NCBI RefSeq assembly: GCF_008001015.1
Contig: NZ_CP042862.1
Location: 1,240,001 to 1,304,000, forward strand
Direction: 5' to 3'
DNA from: Serinicoccus profundi
Lineage (GTDB): Bacteria > Actinomycetota > Actinomycetes > Actinomycetales > Dermatophilaceae
DNA: 64,000 bases
The notes under the pieces were generated by a model. That model ran no database searches. It worked only from the letters and a program-made list of their open reading frames with translations, and was not told the DNA's origin. This document shows positions 13,421 through 55,189 of the stretch, piece after piece. Position 1 is the first letter of the stretch. Each line of letters opens with the position of its first letter. A program made the position numbers and the translations under genes.

Positions 13421-15208
13421 TCAGGCCGGGAGTGCACCCACCGGCCGGTCCAGGGGCCGGGGTTGCCCGGCGACTCCGGGCTCGGCGCCCGACCATGTCG
13501 CCGCCACCGGCTCCAGGAGAGCGCGGCTCGCGCCGGCTCCGTCGACGGGGCACGTCCACTCGCCCGACAGGTCGACCAGTCGGACCCCGGGGGACTCCAG
13601 CCAGCGCAGGATGAGCTCGGTCTCCTCCGGCAGCGCCGCAGGTGCGGCCGATGCGTCTGGAGCGCTGACGACCTCGGCGGTCTCGCGGAGCGCCGCGACG
13701 TAGGGCATCGGGTCAGCCCCTCGGGGGCTCACGCTCGTGCCGCTCAGCCGGCCGTGGCGGACGCAGATGAGCTCCCACCCGCCCTGCTCGCCGCGCCGGG
13801 CGGCGATGATCTCGGGTGCGCGGGCGACCGGCCGCAGCCGCTGGCTCCGGGCGGCGGCCCGCACGAGCGCCATCATCCGGTCACGCATCGTGCGCGCCTC
13901 CTCGAAGCGTTCCTGCTCGGCGAGGTCGTCGAGGCGGGACCGCAGCGCCGTCACGACCTCGGTGGTGCTCCCGGCGAGGGCCTGACCCGCCCGAGCGACC
14001 ACCTCGGCGTAGTCCTCCCGGCTCTGGGCTCCCACGCACGGACCCCCGCAGCGGCCGATCTCGAGCAGGACGCAGGCACTGGTGCCGGGGGAGCGCGCCG
14101 ACAGGCGCCGGGTGCACTGGCGTAGCGGGACGACCTCGTGCAGGGCCGTGACGGCGGCCTCCGCGGAGCGCCGGGAGCCGAACGGGCCGGCATACTGCGC
14201 CTTGTCGTCCTTGACCGAGCGCACGACGGACAACCGGGGGAAGGCCTCGTCGGTCAAGCGCACCCACACGGCCTTCTCCGGGTGACGTGAGCGGCGGTTG
14301 TAGCGCGGCTTGTGCTCGGCGATGAGGCGCAGCTCGCGGACCGAGGCCTCCAGGGGGGTGGCGCAGACGATGGGGGTCAAGGACTCGGCGAGGCCGACCA
14401 TCTCCGTCATCCGCCGCCGGGTCTCGGAGGCGGTGAAGTAGGTGAGGGTCCGCCGCCGCAGATCCGTCGCGGTGCCGACGTAGAGCGGGGTTCCTGTGCC
14501 GTCGCGGAAGACGTAGACCCCGGGGGCCGACGGCATCGCCTCGGCCAGGACCCGTTTGCGGCGCTGTGACGGGCTGACCCTCGAGCTGTAGGACTGCAGC
14601 TCCTCCAGCGTGTGCACCCCGAGGTTGCCGACCCGCTCCATGAGGCCGTACAGGACGTCGACCGTCGCCCGCGCGTCGTGCAGGGCACGGTGGTCGGGGG
14701 TGGTGGTCGCCCCGAACAGCCGCGCGAGGCTGGCCAGCTTGTGGTTGGGGGCCTCGTCCTTGCGCACCAGCTGACGGGCCAGCCGGACGGTGTCGAGGAC
14801 CGGGAAACCCGGCCAGGGGTGCCCCGTCTCGCGGGCCGCCGCCTTGAGGAAGGACACGTCGAAGCCGGCGTTGTGGGCGACGAGCACGCTGCCCCGGGCG
14901 AACTCGAGGAACTGCGGCAGCACGGTGGAGATGGCCGGGGCCTGCACCACCATGGCGTTGGTGATGCCGGTCAGGACCGTGATGAAGGCCGGGATGGGGG
15001 TGGCGGGCCGGACGAGAGTCTGGAACTCACCCAGGACCTGGCCCCCGCGCACCTTGACCGCACCGAACTCGGTGATCTGCGACCCGGCGGGGGACCCGCC
15101 GGTGGTCTCGAGGTCGACGACGACGAAAGTCGTCTCGGACAGTGGGGTGCCGAGATCGCCGAAGGTCTCCTGGGTGTAGGTCACCACCCGCTCCGTGGTC
15201 CCGGTCAC
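13421..15208 (-). CDS. DEDDh exonuclease fused to a UvrC-like GIY-YIG nuclease domain
   Basis: A 595-residue fusion. Residues about 25-190 form a DnaQ/DEDDh 3'-5' exonuclease (FVVVDLETTGGSP, VLVAHNAGFDVSFL, HRALHDARATVDVL). From about 228 follows a Cho/UvrC-type GIY-YIG domain (PGVYVFRDGTGTPLYVGTA), a Cys-rich stretch (RCGGPCVG), and a UVR-like helix (EQERFEEARTMRDRM). Such fusions are common in actinobacteria and are thought to act in DNA repair. The GTG at 15208 overlaps, as GTGA, the stop of a 21-codon leaderless mini-ORF, which suggests coupled translation from the mirrored promoter at 15278-15283. Confidence 0.92.
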   Translation of the reverse strand: MTGTTERVVTYTQETFGDLGTPLSETTFVVVDLETTGGSPAGSQITEFGAVKVRGGQVLGEFQTLVRPATPIPAFITVLTGITNAMVVQAPAISTVLPQFLEFARGSVLVAHNAGFDVSFLKAAARETGHPWPGFPVLDTVRLARQLVRKDEAPNHKLASLARLFGATTTPDHRALHDARATVDVLYGLMERVGNLGVHTLEELQSYSSRVSPSQRRKRVLAEAMPSAPGVYVFRDGTGTPLYVGTATDLRRRTLTYFTASETRRRMTEMVGLAESLTPIVCATPLEASVRELRLIAEHKPRYNRRSRHPEKAVWVRLTDEAFPRLSVVRSVKDDKAQYAGPFGSRRSAEAAVTALHEVVPLRQCTRRLSARSPGTSACVLLEIGRCGGPCVGAQSREDYAEVVARAGQALAGSTTEVVTALRSRLDDLAEQERFEEARTMRDRMMALVRAAARSQRLRPVARAPEIIAARRGEQGGWELICVRHGRLSGTSVSPRGADPMPYVAALRETAEVVSAPDASAAPAALPEETELILRWLESPGVRLVDLSGEWTCPVDGAGASRALLEPVAATWSGAEPGVAGQPRPLDRPVGALPA

Positions 15209-15270
15209 CGGGTGCCCCCCGCGGTGCGGTGCCGGGTGGGGCCCGCGAGGCTCGTGTGCCGCATCTGCAT
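15205..15270 (-). CDS. Leaderless 21-residue mini-ORF upstream of the exonuclease gene
   Basis: Starts MQMRHTSL at ATG 15270, exactly 7 bases after a TAGCCT -10 hexamer on the minus strand. Its stop overlaps the exonuclease start (GTGA at 15205-15208). Position and coupling are the evidence; the peptide itself resembles nothing I know. It may be a translated leader rather than a functional peptide. Confidence 0.35.
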   Translation of the reverse strand: MQMRHTSLAGPTRHRTAGGTR

Positions 15271-15277
15271 ACCGGTG

Positions 15278-15351
15278 AGGCTAGGGCGGCCCACCGACAG
15301 ACCCCTGACGGCGCGCGGGGAGCGGGGTCTGTCGGTGGGCAGCCCTAGCGT
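15278..15351. promoter_or_regulatory. Mirror-symmetric divergent promoter in a 26-bp inverted repeat
   Basis: Arms at 15280-15305 and 15324-15349 are complementary at 25 of 26 positions around an 18-base centre. The -10 hexamers (TAGCCT leftward at 15278-15283, TAGCGT rightward at 15346-15351), the 7-base spacers and the ATG codons (15270 and 15359) are all at exact mirror positions about 15314.5. One regulator bound to the symmetric arms could control both directions equally (inference). Confidence 0.65.
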
Positions 15352-15358
15352 CGTCGTC

Positions 15359-15427
15359 ATGAAGGAGGTGGACCCATGTACCCACACCCCACACCACCCA
15401 CCCCGCGAGGCCAGTCCGTCGCGGTGA
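15359..15427 (+). CDS. Leaderless 22-residue mini-ORF upstream of the Cys-rich gene
   Basis: ATG 15359 lies 7 bases after TAGCGT and opens a 22-codon frame starting MKEVDPCT. Its first codons contain the AAGGAGGTG ribosome binding site of the next gene, whose ATG (15376) lies inside it in another frame. It could be a leader peptide, or simply the 5' end of the mRNA of the 126-residue protein. Confidence 0.3.
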   Translation: MKEVDPCTHTPHHPPREASPSR

Positions 15428-15756
15428 TCGACTGCGAGACCTGCCCCGTCCGGGGGCGGCACTGCGGTGACTGCTTCGTGCCCGTCCTGGGCCGCATCTG
15501 GCTGGAGACGCCCACCCGGGCGGCCGAACCCTCACCCCGGCCCGGAGCGGACCGAGCGGAGCGAGCCGGGCAGGCCGCGCCGGGCGAACCTGGACCCGGC
15601 GTCCCGGTCGATCCGGACGACGCGTCGTCCGCAGGTCTGGACAGCGACGAGCTGGCCGCGGTGAGCGCCTTCGTCCGGGCCGGCCTGGTCGCGCCCCAGG
15701 AAGCGCGCGCCGCCCGCGCCCACGTCGAGCCCACCCGCAGGGTCGCCGCGGGCTGA
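15376..15756 (+). CDS. Small Cys-rich protein with a CxxC-x6-CxxC motif, function unknown
   Basis: A 126-residue protein. Residues 19-33 (DCETCPVRGRHCGDC) form a compact four-cysteine zinc-ribbon-like site; the middle is Pro/Ala/Glu-rich and the end is a short helical segment (DELAAVSAFVRAGLVAPQEA). The ATG at 15376 has a perfect AAGGAGGTG ribosome binding site 5-6 bases upstream. The disordered middle contains the same CGAGCGGAGCGAGC 14-mer found before aat. It is divergent from the exonuclease/GIY-YIG gene through a symmetric promoter, so the two may respond to the same signal. Confidence 0.75.
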   Translation: MYPHPTPPTPRGQSVAVIDCETCPVRGRHCGDCFVPVLGRIWLETPTRAAEPSPRPGADRAERAGQAAPGEPGPGVPVDPDDASSAGLDSDELAAVSAFVRAGLVAPQEARAARAHVEPTRRVAAG

Positions 15757-30259: not shown

Positions 30260-30288
30260 GTTGAGTCTGTCGGTGTCCGGTCGTACAT
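30260..30288 (+). promoter_or_regulatory. Promoter of the SOS translesion operon
   Basis: TTGAGT (30260-30265), 17-base spacer, TACATT (30283-30288). Transcription should begin near 30295, just before the LexA box. Confidence 0.65.
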
Positions 30289-30305
30289 TTGTGCCATCGC
30301 TGATG

Positions 30306-30374: not shown

Positions 30375-30800
30375 ATGAGCAGGAGCTACCACGAGCCGGT
30401 CGAGGTCAGGCTGGGCCGGGCGCAGGAGCACGGTGTCCGGGTCGAGGCGGCGCTGCCGGCCGGGATCGGCGGAGGTGACGGGAGGGCTGGTGGTCGAACG
30501 GTCGCCGACCACGACGACCCGCAGGTCCCGGCCGTCTTCCTCTGGCGGGGCCGGGTGCACCTCGTGCGTGCGGTGCTGGGGCAGTGGAGTCTGCGGGTGC
30601 CGTGGTGGCGCTCCGAGGAGCAGGCCGACCCCGGGTCGGCCGCGGCCGAGGACATCGCGCCCGATGTCGCCGACCGGGCGGGAGGAGATCTGGAGCGGAC
30701 CGTCTGGCGGGTCGAGGCGGGTGCTGGGCGCGCCGCAGGTACCGGCGTCTACGACCTCGTCCAGGGCGAGCAGTGGTGGTTGGAGCGGGTCGCCGACTGA
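30375..30800 (+). CDS. DUF6504 family protein
   Basis: A 141-residue protein beginning with a short strand-rich segment and centred on VPAVFLWRGRVHLVRAVLGQW, with a Trp-rich WRVEAGAG...YDLVQGEQWWLERV end typical of DUF6504. AAGGAGG lies 7 bases before ATG 30375. It is the first gene of the SOS-controlled operon; members of this family often lie beside translesion polymerase genes in actinobacteria (from memory). Molecular function is unknown. Confidence 0.82.
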   Translation: MSRSYHEPVEVRLGRAQEHGVRVEAALPAGIGGGDGRAGGRTVADHDDPQVPAVFLWRGRVHLVRAVLGQWSLRVPWWRSEEQADPGSAAAEDIAPDVADRAGGDLERTVWRVEAGAGRAAGTGVYDLVQGEQWWLERVAD

Positions 30801-30848: not shown

Positions 30849-31319
30849 ATGAGGATCACGGAAGGGAACGACGGGATGACGATCACCGAGACCGGAGTCA
30901 CCGCAGGAGCGGTGCTGGATCTGCTGGAGCGCTCGCGAGGCGTGCTGCTGCAGGCCTGCCACAGCGGGACCGCGGCGGAGCGCTACACCCAGGCCCACCT
31001 GTCCGCCCTGCGTGCCGGGGCGGCCTTGCTGGCGGCGCGCGCCACGCCCACCGCCACCCGCCGCAGCCGGCCGCGCAGCGTCTGGGAGATGCTTCCGACG
31101 GTCGCTCCCGAGCTGACCGAGTGGGCCGCGTTCTTCGCCGCGTCCGGCCGCCGGCGGGTGGCGCTCGAGCGAGGAGGAGCCAGCGCGGCCGTGACGACGC
31201 GCGAGGCCGATGACCTGGTGCGGGCGGCGGAGCACTTCCTCGACCTGGTGCGCGCGGCGCTCCACCTGCCGTGCGAGACCTCGCTGCACTCCGAGCTGAC
31301 CCCCCTGGGGCACGGGTGA
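30849..31319 (+). CDS. SAV_6107 family HEPN-like protein
   Basis: A 156-residue, almost all-helical protein with the pattern of the SAV_6107 family: ERYTQAHLSALRAGAALLAAR, SVWEMLPTVAPELTEWAAFFAASG, and VTTREADDLVRAAEHFLDLV. HEPN proteins are often RNases or nucleotide-binding helpers, but the RX4-6H catalytic motif is not obvious here, so activity is uncertain. AGGAG precedes ATG 30849; ATG 30876 is also possible. It overlaps the polymerase start in GTGA, tying it to translesion synthesis. Confidence 0.8.
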   Translation: MRITEGNDGMTITETGVTAGAVLDLLERSRGVLLQACHSGTAAERYTQAHLSALRAGAALLAARATPTATRRSRPRSVWEMLPTVAPELTEWAAFFAASGRRRVALERGGASAAVTTREADDLVRAAEHFLDLVRAALHLPCETSLHSELTPLGHG

Positions 31320-34300
31320 GTCCGGTGGCGGCTGGAGGCGACGACTTCGTGCACCTGCACGTCGCCTCCAGCGCGTCCATGCGGTATGGCGCCTCCCACC
31401 CGGTCGACCTCGTCCGGCGGGCGGCCGAGCTGGGCCAGTCCGCGCTGGCGCTGACCGACCGTGACGGGCTCTACGGCGCGGTGCGTTTCGTCCGTGCCTG
31501 CACGGAGGCCGGGATCGCCCCGGTGCTGGGGGTGGATCTCGCGCTGGCGGGCTCGCCGCCCGCAGGAGGGTCGGGCGGGCGGTCCGGGGCGTCGGCCTCC
31601 ACGCCGTTCGTGACGGGGCTGCGGGAGACACCTCCCGAGCGGTCCCGGATGTCTCCCGGCCGCGGGTGGGGAGAGGGGCTGGACGTCCGGCCGGACCGGC
31701 GCGGTCCGCGCACCCCGGTCAAGGGGGGCGCCCTCGTCGACGACCAGCAGCCGCGGGTGGTGCTGCTGGCCCGGGGCCAGCGCGGTGGGGCCGAGGCGGG
31801 CTCCGGGTGGGCGAGGTTGTGCCGACTGGTCACGCACACCCACCTGGCGGGCGAACGCTCGGTGCCACGGGTCACCCCCGAGCTCATCGCCCGGGCTGCC
31901 GCCGGCGCTGCCGGGGCCTCCCCGGTCGTCCTGCTGCTGGGGCCGGACTCCGACGTCGGCCGGGCGCTGCTGGCCCGCCGTCGCGACCTGGCCCGCCACC
32001 TCCTCCTGGGGTGGGCGAGGCTGCTCCCCGCGGGGGCGGTGCGGATCGAGGTGGTCTGCCACGGTGGGCCCGAGGGCACGCCGGGGAGCCTGGCCCATGC
32101 CACGGCGTCGTGGGCGCTGGCCCGCGAGGTCGGCGTCCCCGCCGTGCTCACGGCGGCGGTGCGGCACGCGCACCCCGAGCAGGCGCGGGTCGTGGACGTG
32201 CTCGACGCCGCCCGCCGCCGGGTCGCGCTCGACGAGCGGCACCTCGACCGGGTGAGCAGCGCCGGCCACCTCGCGCAGACCGCTGTCATGCACGGGCTGG
32301 CCCGGCAGCTGGAGCGCGCCGGGGGGCCTGGCGCCCGGGCCGAGGAGCTCGTGCGCGACACCCTGCAGCTGGCCGCCGACTGTCATCAGGACGCCCGCTC
32401 CGACCTCGGGATCGGCGCGGTCCACCTGCCCGAGCCGGAGGTGCTCGGGGTGCGCGGGGTGGGGCAGGCCCACCAGGTCCTGACCGAGCGGTGCACCCAG
32501 GCCGTCGGCAGTCGCTACCCCGGGGTCGCGAGGGCGGTCGAGCGCGAGGTCCGCGACCGGCTCGAGCAGGAGCTCGGGGTGATCGCCGGACTGGGCTACC
32601 CCACCTACTTCCTCACCGTCGCCCAGGTCTGCGACCTGATCCGGGACCACGGCGTCCGGGTGGCTGCCCGCGGGTCGGGGGCGGGGAGTCTGGTGACCTA
32701 CCTCCTCGGCATCAGCGGCGTCGACCCGATGGAGCACGGGCTGCTCATGGAGCGGTTCTGCTCCCCGCTGCGGGCCCAGCTGCCGGATATCGACATCGAC
32801 GTCGAGTCGGCCCGGCGCACCGAGATCTACGAGCACATCCTCGAACGTTTCGGCTCTGAGCGGGTGACCTGTGTGTCGATGACCGAGACCTACCGCGTGC
32901 GGCACGCCGTGCGTGACGTCGCGGCGACGCTGGGGCTTCCGCCCGGCGAGATCGACGTGATCGCCAAGGCCTTCCCCCACATCCGGGCGCGCGATGCCCG
33001 GGCCGCGATCCGCGACCTGCCCGAGCTACGACGCCAGGGGCTGGACGCCCCGCGGATGCGTCTCCTCATGGAGCTGGTGGAGGCCCTCGACGGGCTGCCC
33101 CGCCACATCGCGATGCACCCGTGCGGAGTGGTCCTGTCCGACACCGGCCTCCTCGACCGGACCCCGGTCGAGGCGAGCTGGTTGGGCTTCCCGATGAGCC
33201 AGTTCGACAAGGACGACGTCGAGGAGCTGGGGTTGCTCAAGCTCGACGTCCTGGGGATCCGGATGCAGTCGGCGATGGCGCACGCCGTCGAGGAGGTCGA
33301 ACGCGTCGACGGCACCCGGATCGACCTGGACGACCGGGCGCAGGTGCCCCTGGACGACCCCGACACCTTCGCCCTGGTGCAGTCCACCCGCACCCTCGGG
33401 TGCTTCCAGATCGAGTCCCCGGGTCAGCGCGAGCTGGTGGGGAAGTTCGCGCCGGAGACCTTCACCGACATCATCATCGACATCTCCCTGTTCCGGCCCG
33501 GGCCGGTGAAGTCCGACATGATCAGGCCGTTCCTGCACGCCCGCCAGGGCTGGGGTGAGCCGGAGTACCTCCATCCCCGCCTCATCCCCTACCTCGAGCA
33601 GACCTGCGGGGTGGTGGTCTTCCACGAGCAGGTGCTGCAGATCGTCGCCGAGACCACAGGGGTGTCCCTGGCCCAGGCCGATGAGGTGCGCCGGGCGATG
33701 GGCAGCCCGGCCGGGCAGGAGAAGGTCGAGGTGTGGTGGCGTGCCGCAGCTGCCGCACGCGGTTACCGCCCGGAGGAGGTGGGCCGGATCTGGGAGGTGC
33801 TGGCCGCCTTCGCCTCGTTCGGTTTCTGCAAGGCCCACGCGGCCGCCTTCGCGCTCCCGACCTACCAGTCGGCCTGGCTGAAGACCCATCACACCGCAGC
33901 CTTCCTCGCCGGTGTCCTGACCCACGATCCCGGGATGTATCCCAAGCGGCTGATCCTGGACGAGGCCAGGACCATGGGGGTCCACGTGCTCGGTCTCGAC
34001 GTCAACACCTCCGGCGCGACCTACCTGGTCGAGCGCGTCGACGCGATGACCCTGGAGGGGGAGTCCGCGTGGGACGCCGCGCCGTCGCACGGCGCCCCGG
34101 CCGGTGGGGCCCGGGGCACGCTGCGGCGCCAGCCGGACCGGGTGGACGCCACCATGGCCTCCATCGAGCGACGGGCCGCGGGCTACGGCATCCGGTTGTC
34201 CCTGGCCGACGTCAAGGGCATCACCGAGGACGAGATCGGCCGGATCGTCGCCGGACAGCCCTACGACTCCTTGTCCGACCTGTGGCACCGCGCCCGACCC

Positions 34301-35359
34301 AGCCGACCCACGGCGGAGCGGCTCGTGCTGGCCGGGGGTCTGGACGAGCTGCACCGGGTCGGCCGGTGCAGCCCCCGCGCCCGCGACACCCCGGGCGGAC
34401 GCCGCGTCGGTGGAGGTGCCGGCGGGGGCGGGCGGACGGACCTGACCCGTCGTGACCTCATGCTGCACGTGCGTGACCTGGAGCGCTGGTCACGGCACGC
34501 GGGCGGGGCGCAGGGGCTCTCCCGCGCCGGACGCCGTCGCCCGGCGCCGGTCATCGAGGCGGGAGAGGTCGCGGCCCGGGCGGAGGACCAGGCGGTGGGA
34601 CGCCGTTCGTGGCGGACCAGCGGTGTCACCGCACCGACCCAGCTGACCCTGGAGCTGGGGGACGACCCGGCGCCCCTCGTCGGGAGCGGGTTGCCCGAGA
34701 TGAGCCGGTCCGAGCAGCTACGGGCCGAGCTGGAGGTGCTCGGCATGGATGTCAGCAGCCATGTGGTGGAGGGCTTTGCTCCGATGTTGAGCGAGCTGGG
34801 GGTGACCCGGGCCCGCGATCTGCTCTCCTACCGCAGCGGTGCCGAGGTGCTCGTGGCCGGGGCGAAGGTCGCCACCCAGACCCCGCCGGTGCGGTCCGGG
34901 CGACGGGTCGTCTTCCTCACGCTGGACGACAGCAGCGGACCGGCCGACGCGACCTTCTTCGAGGACGTCCAGGGCCCGTTCGCCTCCACCGTCTTCCACT
35001 CCTGGCTGCTGCTGGTGCGCGGTGTCGTCCGTCGCACCGGACCCAGAGGGGTCTCGATCCGGGCCACCGCCGCCTGGGAGCTGGGGGCGGTCGCGCAGGC
35101 CTGGGAGCACGGAGGTCCGGCCGCCGCGCAGGCGGCCATGGAGCAGTCCGTGCAGCAGGCGAGGGTGCTCGCCCTGGAGGCCGAGGCCGCCTCCCGTGCG
35201 GCGGCCTCGGCGACCGGCGCACCGGCCGGGCGCCGGGTGCTCGTGCACGCCTCGGGCTTCGCCCAGTCGCCCTACGCCGACATCGCCCCGGCCGGGGAGA
35301 CGACCAGGCAGCCGGGCGGCAAGCTGTGGCACTCCAGTCCGGGCAGCTCCGGATGGTGA
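31316..35359 (+). CDS. dnaE2: DnaE-type error-prone DNA polymerase (DNA polymerase III alpha family)
   Basis: A 1347-residue C-family polymerase. The N-terminal PHP domain is degenerate: LHVASSASMRYGASHP and LTDRDGLYG replace the metal-binding HCHS and DHDG patterns of active PHP domains. The polymerase core has ARGSGAGSLVTYLLGI and the catalytic PDIDIDVESARR. Helix-hairpin-helix and OB-fold regions follow (VKGITEDEIGRIV; ATFFEDVQGPF). A low-complexity insert of ~60 residues near 85-145 and another near 1030-1100 enlarge it. The start GTG 31316 overlaps the upstream stop. It probably needs accessory proteins for lesion bypass. Confidence 0.9.
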   Translation: MSPVAAGGDDFVHLHVASSASMRYGASHPVDLVRRAAELGQSALALTDRDGLYGAVRFVRACTEAGIAPVLGVDLALAGSPPAGGSGGRSGASASTPFVTGLRETPPERSRMSPGRGWGEGLDVRPDRRGPRTPVKGGALVDDQQPRVVLLARGQRGGAEAGSGWARLCRLVTHTHLAGERSVPRVTPELIARAAAGAAGASPVVLLLGPDSDVGRALLARRRDLARHLLLGWARLLPAGAVRIEVVCHGGPEGTPGSLAHATASWALAREVGVPAVLTAAVRHAHPEQARVVDVLDAARRRVALDERHLDRVSSAGHLAQTAVMHGLARQLERAGGPGARAEELVRDTLQLAADCHQDARSDLGIGAVHLPEPEVLGVRGVGQAHQVLTERCTQAVGSRYPGVARAVEREVRDRLEQELGVIAGLGYPTYFLTVAQVCDLIRDHGVRVAARGSGAGSLVTYLLGISGVDPMEHGLLMERFCSPLRAQLPDIDIDVESARRTEIYEHILERFGSERVTCVSMTETYRVRHAVRDVAATLGLPPGEIDVIAKAFPHIRARDARAAIRDLPELRRQGLDAPRMRLLMELVEALDGLPRHIAMHPCGVVLSDTGLLDRTPVEASWLGFPMSQFDKDDVEELGLLKLDVLGIRMQSAMAHAVEEVERVDGTRIDLDDRAQVPLDDPDTFALVQSTRTLGCFQIESPGQRELVGKFAPETFTDIIIDISLFRPGPVKSDMIRPFLHARQGWGEPEYLHPRLIPYLEQTCGVVVFHEQVLQIVAETTGVSLAQADEVRRAMGSPAGQEKVEVWWRAAAAARGYRPEEVGRIWEVLAAFASFGFCKAHAAAFALPTYQSAWLKTHHTAAFLAGVLTHDPGMYPKRLILDEARTMGVHVLGLDVNTSGATYLVERVDAMTLEGESAWDAAPSHGAPAGGARGTLRRQPDRVDATMASIERRAAGYGIRLSLADVKGITEDEIGRIVAGQPYDSLSDLWHRARPSRPTAERLVLAGGLDELHRVGRCSPRARDTPGGRRVGGGAGGGGRTDLTRRDLMLHVRDLERWSRHAGGAQGLSRAGRRRPAPVIEAGEVAARAEDQAVGRRSWRTSGVTAPTQLTLELGDDPAPLVGSGLPEMSRSEQLRAELEVLGMDVSSHVVEGFAPMLSELGVTRARDLLSYRSGAEVLVAGAKVATQTPPVRSGRRVVFLTLDDSSGPADATFFEDVQGPFASTVFHSWLLLVRGVVRRTGPRGVSIRATAAWELGAVAQAWEHGGPAAAQAAMEQSVQQARVLALEAEAASRAAASATGAPAGRRVLVHASGFAQSPYADIAPAGETTRQPGGKLWHSSPGSSGW

Positions 35360-52889: not shown

Positions 52890-53758
52890 CGGGCCGGGCC
52901 GTCCTCCGGGGCCGGCGACGGCGTCGAAGGGGCCGACGACCCTGCGCCGGGCGCCGACCGGACATCGGCCAGCAGGTCCCAGGCGTCCAGCATCGCGGGG
53001 CCGTACCACGTGAGCAGCCGACCGCTCACGAGCCGGGTCGGGGTCTGGCGGAAGGCCTCGGGCCCGTCCGTCGGGCCGAAGGTGTAGGGCTCGTCGGGCA
53101 GCAGGGCCACGTCGGCACCGGCGGTGTCGAGATCGGCCAGCTCGACGCCGGGGTAGCGCTCGTCGTGGTCGGCGAAGAGGTTGCGCACCCCGCCCCGGTG
53201 GAGCAGGTCGGTGGTGTAGGTGCGCGAACCCACGACCATCCAGGGATCCCGCCAGATCGGCACGACCACGGACGGTCCGGCGGGTGCGGTCGCGCCGGGG
53301 GAGGACGCCTCGCTGCCGGGTGCCGAGGCGTCGGCGACCACCGACCACCGGGCCTCCACGTCCAGCAGCCAGGGCGGCTCACCCCAGCCCAGCACGTCCA
53401 CGAGCAGCGTGCGCAGCACCCGGAGGGCGTCGTCGACGGACTCGATGACGCCGACCCAGACGGGCACGCCCGCCTCGCGCAACCGGCGCACGTCGAGCTC
53501 GCGGTTCTCCTCCTGCACGCAGACGACGAGCTCGGGGGAGAGCTCCTGGATGGCGGCGCGGTCCGGGTTCTTCGTGCCGCGGACCCGGGCCACGTCGAGG
53601 TCGGCGGGGTGGGTGCACCACTGCGTGGCGGCGACCAGCGCCTCGCGCCGGGTGTCCGCCAGCGCCTCGGTGAGCGAGGGCACGAGGGAGACCACCCGGG
53701 TCACCGGCCCGTCGGGCAGCGCGACCGCGCCGCCCAGGTCGTCGCGCAGGTGCCTCAT
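52886..53758 (-). CDS. Helical-backbone metal receptor (BtuF/TroA-like) without signal peptide
   Basis: 290 residues with the periplasmic binding protein pattern: VSLVPSLTEAL, WCTHPADL, VRGTKNPDRAAIQELSPELVVCVQEENRELDVRRLREAGVPV, and LLPDEPYTFG. Members usually bind cobalamin or iron-siderophore outside the membrane, but no signal peptide or lipobox precedes the fold here. ATG 53758 overlaps the upstream UDP-glucose pyrophosphorylase stop (ATGA). It is probably cytosolic or mis-exported; no ABC transporter gene is nearby. Confidence 0.83.
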   Translation of the reverse strand: MRHLRDDLGGAVALPDGPVTRVVSLVPSLTEALADTRREALVAATQWCTHPADLDVARVRGTKNPDRAAIQELSPELVVCVQEENRELDVRRLREAGVPVWVGVIESVDDALRVLRTLLVDVLGWGEPPWLLDVEARWSVVADASAPGSEASSPGATAPAGPSVVVPIWRDPWMVVGSRTYTTDLLHRGGVRNLFADHDERYPGVELADLDTAGADVALLPDEPYTFGPTDGPEAFRQTPTRLVSGRLLTWYGPAMLDAWDLLADVRSAPGAGSSAPSTPSPAPEDGPAR

Positions 53759-55137
53759 GCCCCGCCCAGGGTGGCCCCGTCGTCGACCGAGCCGCCCTCC
53801 GGCCCGAGGTGGGCGACGCCGCGCACCCGCACCCCGGAGCCGAAGCGCCAGTCCCCCTCGACCTCGAGCCGGGTGGCCTCGACCAGGGAGGGCACCCCGG
53901 CCGGGAAGCGCTCGTCGAAGTCGTCGATCATGCCGTAGTGCGCCTTCGTCAGGTCCACGACCGGCGCCGGGTCGACCGTCCGGTGGAGGCGGTAGGACGT
54001 GTCGTCCACGGCATACACGTCCGAGCGCAGCAGCGCGAGCTCGTTGGTGGTCTTGACCGGCACGAAGCGCTCCCGGCTCACCGCGATCGAGGCGGCGTCG
54101 GCGAAGAGCTCGACGGCGCTGCCCATCGCCGACTCGATCTGGATGACCGGGGTGGACGCCTTGTCGGTGGGGTCGACGGTCTTGGCGTTGCGGATGAGGG
54201 GCAGCTCCATGACGCCGCCGCGCTCGGTGAGCATGTCGCGCAGGCGCGCCAGGTCGAACCACAGGTTGTTGGTGTTGACGAAGGGATGCTTCTCGCCGTC
54301 CATGAAGTGGACCATCTCTTCCTCGGCGGTCTGCGCCGTGTCGCGCAGCACGAGCCGTCCGTCGGCGCGGCGCCGCACGAGGTGACCGCCCTTCTTGTCC
54401 ATCTCGGTCCGACGGCAGACCTCGGCGGCGAAGCCGGCGCCGCTGGCCGCGAACCACGCCGCCACACGACCGTCGGCGACCGCGCCGAGGTTGTCGACGT
54501 TGGAGACGAAGGCATACCGGAAGCCGCCCTCGAGGAGCTGGTCGAGCAGCCCGCTGGCGAGCAGCGAGGGGTAGAGGTCGCCGTGGCCCGGTGGGCACCA
54601 CTCCAGGCGCGGGTCGGCCTCCCAGGTCACCGGGGTGAGGTCGTCGGCGCGCAGCTTGGGCTCCTGGGACTGCACGAAGTCCAGCGGTATGCCGTCGGTC
54701 GCGAGCTCGGGGTAACGGTCCAGGACCTCCAGGGTCGCCTCGCGGGTGGAGAAGCTGTCCATGAACACCAGGGGGAGCCTCACCCCGAAGCGCTCGCGCA
54801 GCGCCAGCACCTGGCGCACGGTGATGTCGAGGAAGGTCAGGCCCTCGCGGACGGGGAGCAGGGACTTGGGCGCGGCGAGGCCCATCGAGGTGCCGAGGCC
54901 GCCGTTGAGGGTGATGACCGCCGTCGCCGCCAGCGCCTCGCGCGCCTCCTCCTCGGTGACGTCGACGTCCTCGAGGTGGGCGGTGGGCAGGGCCGGCTCC
55001 ACGTCGGCCTCCGCGATGAGGCCGGTCGCCCCCGCCGCGAGGTGGTCGTAGTGCCGCGCGAAGGTGTCGCGAGCGGGCCGACTCACGCCGGCCTGCTGCA
55101 TACGGTCAAGGGCCTGCTGACGTCCCGATGCGCTCAT
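53755..55137 (-). CDS. UTP-glucose-1-phosphate uridylyltransferase, eukaryotic-type fold
   Basis: 460 residues of the UDPGP family (not GalU type). It contains LNGGLGTSMGLAAPKSLLPV (nucleotide loop and Lys), WCPPGHGDLYPSL, VSNVDNLGA and MDKKGGHL. It makes UDP-glucose for glycans and trehalose. Probably leaderless: TAGGTT lies 6 bases before ATG 55137. It is translationally coupled to the metal-receptor-like gene. Confidence 0.9.
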   Translation of the reverse strand: MSASGRQQALDRMQQAGVSRPARDTFARHYDHLAAGATGLIAEADVEPALPTAHLEDVDVTEEEAREALAATAVITLNGGLGTSMGLAAPKSLLPVREGLTFLDITVRQVLALRERFGVRLPLVFMDSFSTREATLEVLDRYPELATDGIPLDFVQSQEPKLRADDLTPVTWEADPRLEWCPPGHGDLYPSLLASGLLDQLLEGGFRYAFVSNVDNLGAVADGRVAAWFAASGAGFAAEVCRRTEMDKKGGHLVRRRADGRLVLRDTAQTAEEEMVHFMDGEKHPFVNTNNLWFDLARLRDMLTERGGVMELPLIRNAKTVDPTDKASTPVIQIESAMGSAVELFADAASIAVSRERFVPVKTTNELALLRSDVYAVDDTSYRLHRTVDPAPVVDLTKAHYGMIDDFDERFPAGVPSLVEATRLEVEGDWRFGSGVRVRGVAHLGPEGGSVDDGATLGGA

Positions 55138-55143
55138 GGGGCC

Positions 55144-55149
55144 AACCTA
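55144..55149 (-). promoter_or_regulatory. -10 element, leaderless promoter of the UDPGP gene
   Basis: TAGGTT on the minus strand, 6-base spacer to ATG 55137. Confidence 0.5.
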
Positions 55150-55189
55150 CCGAGAGACACCGACAGGGGGCTTCCACGGCCCACCGTGC

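Follow-up and report, generated by a model that had tools for sequence, protein, structure and literature searches.

What is the function of a nearly perfect inverted repeat of 26 bp that lies between two divergently oriented genes of Serinicoccus profundi? The repeat was found in a 64-kb stretch of DNA, which is here called the window (C1:1240001-1304000 of the 3,475,711-base genome). On one side it is followed by the gene of a DEDDh exonuclease with a UvrC-like GIY-YIG part (13421-15208, minus strand, 595 amino acids from GTG). This protein matched NF005907 with 894 bits and PF00929 with 123.5 bits, and the GIY-YIG profile PF01541 with 20.7 bits, under its cut-off of 22.6. On the other side lies the gene of a small four-cysteine protein of 126 amino acids with the pattern CX2C-X6-CX2C (15376-15756, plus strand), which belongs to an uncharacterised family.

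The repeat (15280-15349) had been noticed in an earlier reading of the sequence, and re-reading and a scan of the window bore it out. Its arms (15280-15305 and 15324-15349) are identical at 25 of 26 positions about an axis at 15314.5. This was the sole inverted repeat with an identity of at least 25/26 and a loop of up to about 60 nt that the scan found in the window, while the same scan gave none in five first-order Markov controls. A repeat finder lengthened the arms to 41 nt at 83% identity, with a loop of 18 nt. Two -10 hexamers (TAGCCT and TAGCGT), two 7-nt spacers and two ATG codons (15270, minus strand; 15359, plus strand) are mirrored exactly about the axis, as had been described. The single Rfam match, mir-341, scored 27.8 bits, where the gathering score is 90, and was put down to the hairpin. 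No terminator was found.

In the 5' to 3' direction of its own strand, each arm reads GGGGTC-TGTCGGTG-N8-TAGCNT. The exonuclease side (TGTCGGTG-N8-TAGCCT, 15278-15299, minus strand) has a -26 element at 15292-15299 and the -10 hexamer at 15278-15283. On the four-cysteine side (TGTCGGTG-N8-TAGCGT, 15330-15351, plus strand) these elements lie at 15330-15337 and 15346-15351, and the two GGGGTC blocks are located just 5' of the motifs at 15300-15305 (minus strand) and 15324-15329 (plus strand). The LexA SOS box is a palindrome similar to TCGAAC-N4-GTTCGA; the best match to it in 15150-15450 had 5 mismatches of 12, and a LexA box was rejected. A rough consensus scan of 15205-15427 gave no sigma-70-type -35/-10 match, so that a canonical -35 element was not seen there. 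The RecA-NDp consensus is given as tTGTCRgtg-8 nt-TannnT (PMC5656591). Both arms agree exactly with a -26 element TGTCRGTG, a spacer of 8 nt and TANNNT, and the weak first t of the consensus is C here.

The RecA-NDp promoter motif has been assigned to the heterodimer PafBC (PMC8223512, PMC6789036). PafBC is reported to be activated by single-stranded DNA (ssDNA) and was seen to bind promoter DNA only together with RNA polymerase holoenzyme (PMC11804915). According to the literature, the motif itself is not a palindrome (PMC6789036), and its direction is reported to be essential (PMC8151990). A palindrome built of such a motif is therefore best read as two outward-facing promoters and not as one operator, and its near-perfect form comes from two copies of one directional motif that face opposite ways. 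The feature thus very probably represents two divergent PafBC-dependent promoters, one for the exonuclease and one for the four-cysteine protein. The original prediction had seen the symmetry and the short reading frames correctly, and the two-way promoter that it proposed gains support from the PafBC-type motif in each arm. It missed, however, the published motif and the lack of conservation of the short frames, and since each arm fits the RecA-NDp/PafBC motif, the statement that no element like it had been described does not hold.

The two ATG codons open short reading frames of 21 and 22 codons, which end at or within the starts of the real genes, as had been claimed. Mini-ORF 1 (15205-15270, minus strand, 21 codons) begins 7 nt past the -10 hexamer and ends in a TGA that overlaps the exonuclease GTG (15208). 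Within the genus, the search recovered the exonuclease from 30 of 31 genomes, that of S. profundi among them. All 30 loci had the exonuclease-side motif (at least 9 of 11 letters) and an ATG 6-8 nt past the -10 hexamer. In 28 of them this ATG reads into the exonuclease, and 26 of these frames are longer than 300 codons; in the other two, L081 and L091, it reads into the N-terminus and the frame is broken later. The exceptions were S. profundi and L077, where a second short ORF, of only 4 codons, is opened by an ATG 7 nt past the -10 hexamer ahead of the exonuclease. Because the ATG at the same place reads into the exonuclease in nearly all loci, mini-ORF 1 is the conserved exonuclease start codon, displaced out of frame in S. 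profundi. This start looks leaderless, as was first proposed. The simplest route to the exonuclease protein in S. profundi would be translational coupling via the GTG at 15208.

Mini-ORF 2 (15359-15427, plus strand, 22 codons) starts just 5' of the ribosome binding site of the four-cysteine gene and stops inside this gene. Among the loci shown, its ATG occurred only in the closest relatives L062-L067; judged by eye, L064-L066 have it in frame with the four-cysteine gene, and in L062, L063 and L067 it is in another frame. The element that recurred on this side, ahead of the true start codon, was a ribosome binding site like AAGGAGGTGG, and in S. profundi AAGGAGGTGG itself precedes the ATG at 15376. 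It is very improbable that the two mini-ORFs are leader peptides regulating the downstream genes. Although in S. profundi the GTGA overlap points to a coupling between mini-ORF 1 and the exonuclease, and L077 has a short ORF at the same place, this ATG is in most loci the start of the exonuclease frame itself, and that of mini-ORF 2 is confined to the closest relatives among the loci shown. Neither of the two was thus conserved as a mini-ORF.

The motif was also found elsewhere in the genome. The pattern TGTCGGTG-N8-TANNNT, which both arms match exactly, gave 25 exact sites in the whole genome, while a reversed-pattern control gave 1. A relaxed form with TGTCRGWS gave 40 sites compared to 3 for the control. 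An ATG was present 6-8 nt past the -10 hexamer at 13 of the 25 sites (11 of 23 without the two arms), while control positions averaged 0.58 and never exceeded 3 of 25. A downstream gene could be assigned at part of the 25 sites. One site was followed by the RecR gene and another by the gene of a calcineurin-like phosphoesterase, which we take to be SbcD-like. The motif thus recurs before DNA-damage genes, though many of the downstream genes had no evident link to repair; behind several sites these were MFS, ABC, aldo/keto reductase and phosphomannose isomerase genes. Within the window, a PafBC-type motif at 30268-30289 (plus strand) lies before a DUF6504 gene (30375-30800), which is followed by a pol III alpha-type polymerase (31271-35359), presumably DnaE2. 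Another at 55144-55165 (minus strand) lies 6 nt ahead of the start codon (ATG) of a UTP-glucose-1-phosphate uridylyltransferase gene (53755-55137, minus strand), an unexpected target.

The host also encodes PafB and PafC. Two adjoining WYL proteins matched the PafB and PafC chains of 7p5x, 9fnd and 6sj9 with E values from 2.2e-49 to 3.4e-66. It is highly unlikely that the main activator of the same promoter pair is ClgR or another factor instead. According to a report cited in PMC5656591, the RecA-independent promoter is recognised by ClgR, but later work gives the motif to PafBC on the basis of immunoprecipitated cross-linked PafBC-DNA and complexes with RNA polymerase (PMC6789036, PMC11804915, PMC8223512), and the presence of pafB and pafC in S. 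profundi also speaks against ClgR. One regulator for both directions, as suggested earlier, is probably right.

The symmetry of the locus was compared in relatives, as had been recommended. The oppositely directed partner motif was present in 27 of the 30 genus loci (own locus included; threshold 9 of 11 letters), and the four-cysteine-side motif was missing in L079, L080 and L084. Among named actinobacterial loci with the exonuclease within 1 kb, the pair was kept in 28 of 39 (threshold 10 of 11; from the best 80 of 324 relatives). The 5' ends of the motifs are 30 bp apart in S. profundi, while the gap ranged from 26 to 205 bp in the genus and from 2 to 352 bp over all 55 pairs (27 from the genus and 28 from named loci among the best 80 of 324 relatives). 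Both motifs were thus kept at varying spacing, and because of this variation the exact mirror is not conserved. Divergent motifs only 2-3 bp apart were observed in the Mycolicibacter loci L198, L199 and L202.

The arms of 26 genus loci were also compared within and between loci by permutation. L079, L080 and L084, which have no pair, were left out, as was L065, a near-duplicate of L064 that was counted among the 55 pairs. At the 14 arm positions outside the motif the mean identity was 8.0 within loci and 7.6 between loci (p 0.11), and the -10 hexamers gave a p of 0.49. S. profundi matched at 13 of these 14 positions, the highest value of the 55 pairs (named loci from the best 80 of 324 relatives), and the next best pair matched at 11. 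Over the whole 26-nt arm S. profundi reached 25; the runner-up among the 26 loci had 23, and none of 650 between-locus pairs exceeded 23. Part of the arm likeness beyond the published motif arises because GGT commonly stands just upstream (-4 to -2) of the motifs of either side in the genus; it is less common at the other 23 sites of the S. profundi genome. The exact mirror, and with it the extra symmetry of the palindrome, is therefore peculiar to the S. profundi genome among those compared.

A single symmetric operator or a cruciform setting equal output in both directions, as originally suggested, is extremely unlikely, since the motif is published as non-palindromic and directional (PMC6789036, PMC8151990), the spacing varies widely and the identity outside the motif is near background, even though the repeat is the sole one of its kind found in the window. 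As single-stranded DNA the S. profundi repeat forms a strong hairpin (-38.4 kcal/mol, z -7.0), and the L064 and L073 stretches folded better than all 200 shuffles (z -2.9 each), but folding was weak for L063 (z -0.1) and L067 (z -1.9); the latter two stretches, and L073 slightly, were without part of the left arm. Some likeness within loci did favour symmetry. With relatedness ignored, the 8-base core was more alike within the 26 genus loci (193 compared to 180.2 permuted, p 5e-5), as were the 7 bases after the -10 hexamer (99 compared to 85.3, p 0.004); in a closer clade of 17 the core gave 132 compared to 128.8 permuted (p 0.027, relatedness also ignored). Cruciform and equal-output symmetry were rejected on the motif spacing and the arm comparison.

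Because the core and the 7 bases after the -10 hexamer are more alike within than between loci, the arms may have been homogenised recently, for example by a template switch at an inverted repeat, though this is unproven. In L067 (G150), L089 (G104) and L091 (G164) both arms of one locus had the same unusual core variant, TGTCGGTC or TGTCAGAG. These variants were also present elsewhere in the same genomes, TGTCGGTC in G150 and TGTCAGAG in G104 and G164, among the matches listed. Shared unusual variants hint at a concerted change of the arms; concerted evolution is suggested by these sequences, not established.

The four-cysteine protein of the window had no match in Pfam or NCBIfam. Thirty-three members of its family gave only single weak matches, with best E values of 0.05 in Pfam and 0.03 in NCBIfam, none of them significant, and the best hit of a PDB profile search (E 0.6) was not significant either. 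The structure prediction for the family was poor (mean pLDDT 62.9, pTM 0.37). Alignment A1 was chosen by the cysteine pattern, so that its invariant cysteines are partly due to selection. An ATG within 12 codons was lacking in 25 of the 80 named loci, and 8 more repeated a listed start or ran off the end; alignment A4 consisted of 37 of the 47 ATG-start named proteins and the protein of the window. In a sample of 197 genomes of the class, 131 had a member of the family, and a single-sequence query found the protein in 91 of 149 genomes of the same bacterial family. Genera among the best 80 of 324 relatives in named genomes included Nocardioides, Georgenia, Pseudonocardia, Mycobacterium, Kribbella, Planktophila and others.

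Within 260 nt upstream of the four-cysteine gene, 64 of 78 named loci had a PafBC-type motif (10 or more of 11 letters), compared to 3 of 75 control stretches, and 14 lacked it (best 80 of 324 relatives; two loci with less than 260 nt upstream were left out). The exonuclease-side motif was present class-wide at 19 of 40 exonuclease loci (10 of 11 letters) and absent from 21, while none of 39 controls had it. In seven loci of Nanopelagicaceae, Planktophila and other actinobacteria among the best 80 of 324 (L143, L149, L152, L156, L180, L209 and L210) the motif was located 28-29 nt before the four-cysteine start, and the gene is probably leaderless there. No exonuclease match was present within these seven fetched loci. 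Of 123 other exonuclease-positive genomes, 101 had a four-cysteine match and 22 had none. Gene order was typed in the 101 genomes with matches for both genes (G000 excluded). Both genes were on one contig in opposite orientation in 98 of them. The four-cysteine gene lay within 7 kb upstream of the exonuclease in 86 genomes, in 39 of these within 1 kb, while it was on the other side in 8 and more than 10 kb away in 4.

In the parts of the literature on PafBC, GIY-YIG, small CXXC proteins and Rv2191 that were consulted, no description of the gene pair or the four-cysteine family was found; regulon tables may list these genes. It is conceivable, with chances somewhat below even, that an undescribed CX2C-X6-CX2C family, metal- or Fe-S-binding, belongs to the core of the PafBC response to DNA damage in most Actinomycetes and acts with or controls the divergent DEDDh/GIY-YIG nuclease. 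The partner is widespread, and from its promoter motif a role in DNA damage is predicted.

From the published motif and the sequence we infer the start positions, the dependence on PafBC and the induction by DNA damage; damage as the likely signal had already been proposed and was judged right. DNA damage would yield ssDNA, which PafBC would bind. The activated PafBC would then join RNA polymerase with the housekeeping sigma-A factor at either -26/-10 pair, and the complex would read the -26 element TGTCGGTG and the -10 hexamer TAGCNT. One transcript would lead to the exonuclease/GIY-YIG gene. The other, with a leader of 17 nt carrying the ribosome binding site, would lead to the small four-cysteine protein. 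The output in the two directions need not be equal. As the motif 5' ends are 30 bp apart and 89 bp separate the predicted starts, there may be room for two back-to-back complexes, while at the gap of 2-3 bp in the Mycolicibacter loci the two polymerases would be expected to exclude each other.

The feature is real and well explained, and as a promoter element it is ordinary; the worthwhile lead is the uncharacterised four-cysteine partner. A puzzling palindrome has become a testable prediction, namely that one ssDNA-activated regulator switches on a repair nuclease and its partner from one intergenic region. With gaps from 2 to 352 bp (55 pairs; named loci from the best 80 of 324), the pairs also offer a natural series for studying co-occupancy of back-to-back promoters by two activated polymerases.

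The predicted divergent transcription from one intergenic region resembles that of the bacterial bidirectional promoters of Warman and Grainger. Those promoters are described as sharing one -10 region, with starts most often 18 bp apart and 10 and 23 bp also common, and separate divergent promoters are not classed with them (PMC12825309). The pair at 15278-15351 does not share a -10 region; unlike those promoters it has two separate cores, with -10 hexamers at 15278-15283 and 15346-15351. The divergent DriD promoter of Caulobacter is similar in that a WYL-family, ssDNA-binding regulator of the DNA-damage response acts at a divergent promoter (PMC12340889, preprint), a role that is predicted here for PafBC. 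DriD, however, is described as a homodimer that binds a pseudo-palindromic site without polymerase (PMC12340889, preprint), whereas PafBC is heterodimeric, depends on polymerase and has a motif that is not a palindrome (PMC6789036, PMC11804915). Closest are the RecA-NDp/PafBC promoters of actinobacteria, which rely on sigma adaptation; the motif, the -10 spacing, the lack of a -35 match, pafBC in the genome and some repair genes among the sites all agree with them. Unlike the usual promoters of this type, two copies are placed back to back here for two genes, and in S. profundi their symmetry is extended.
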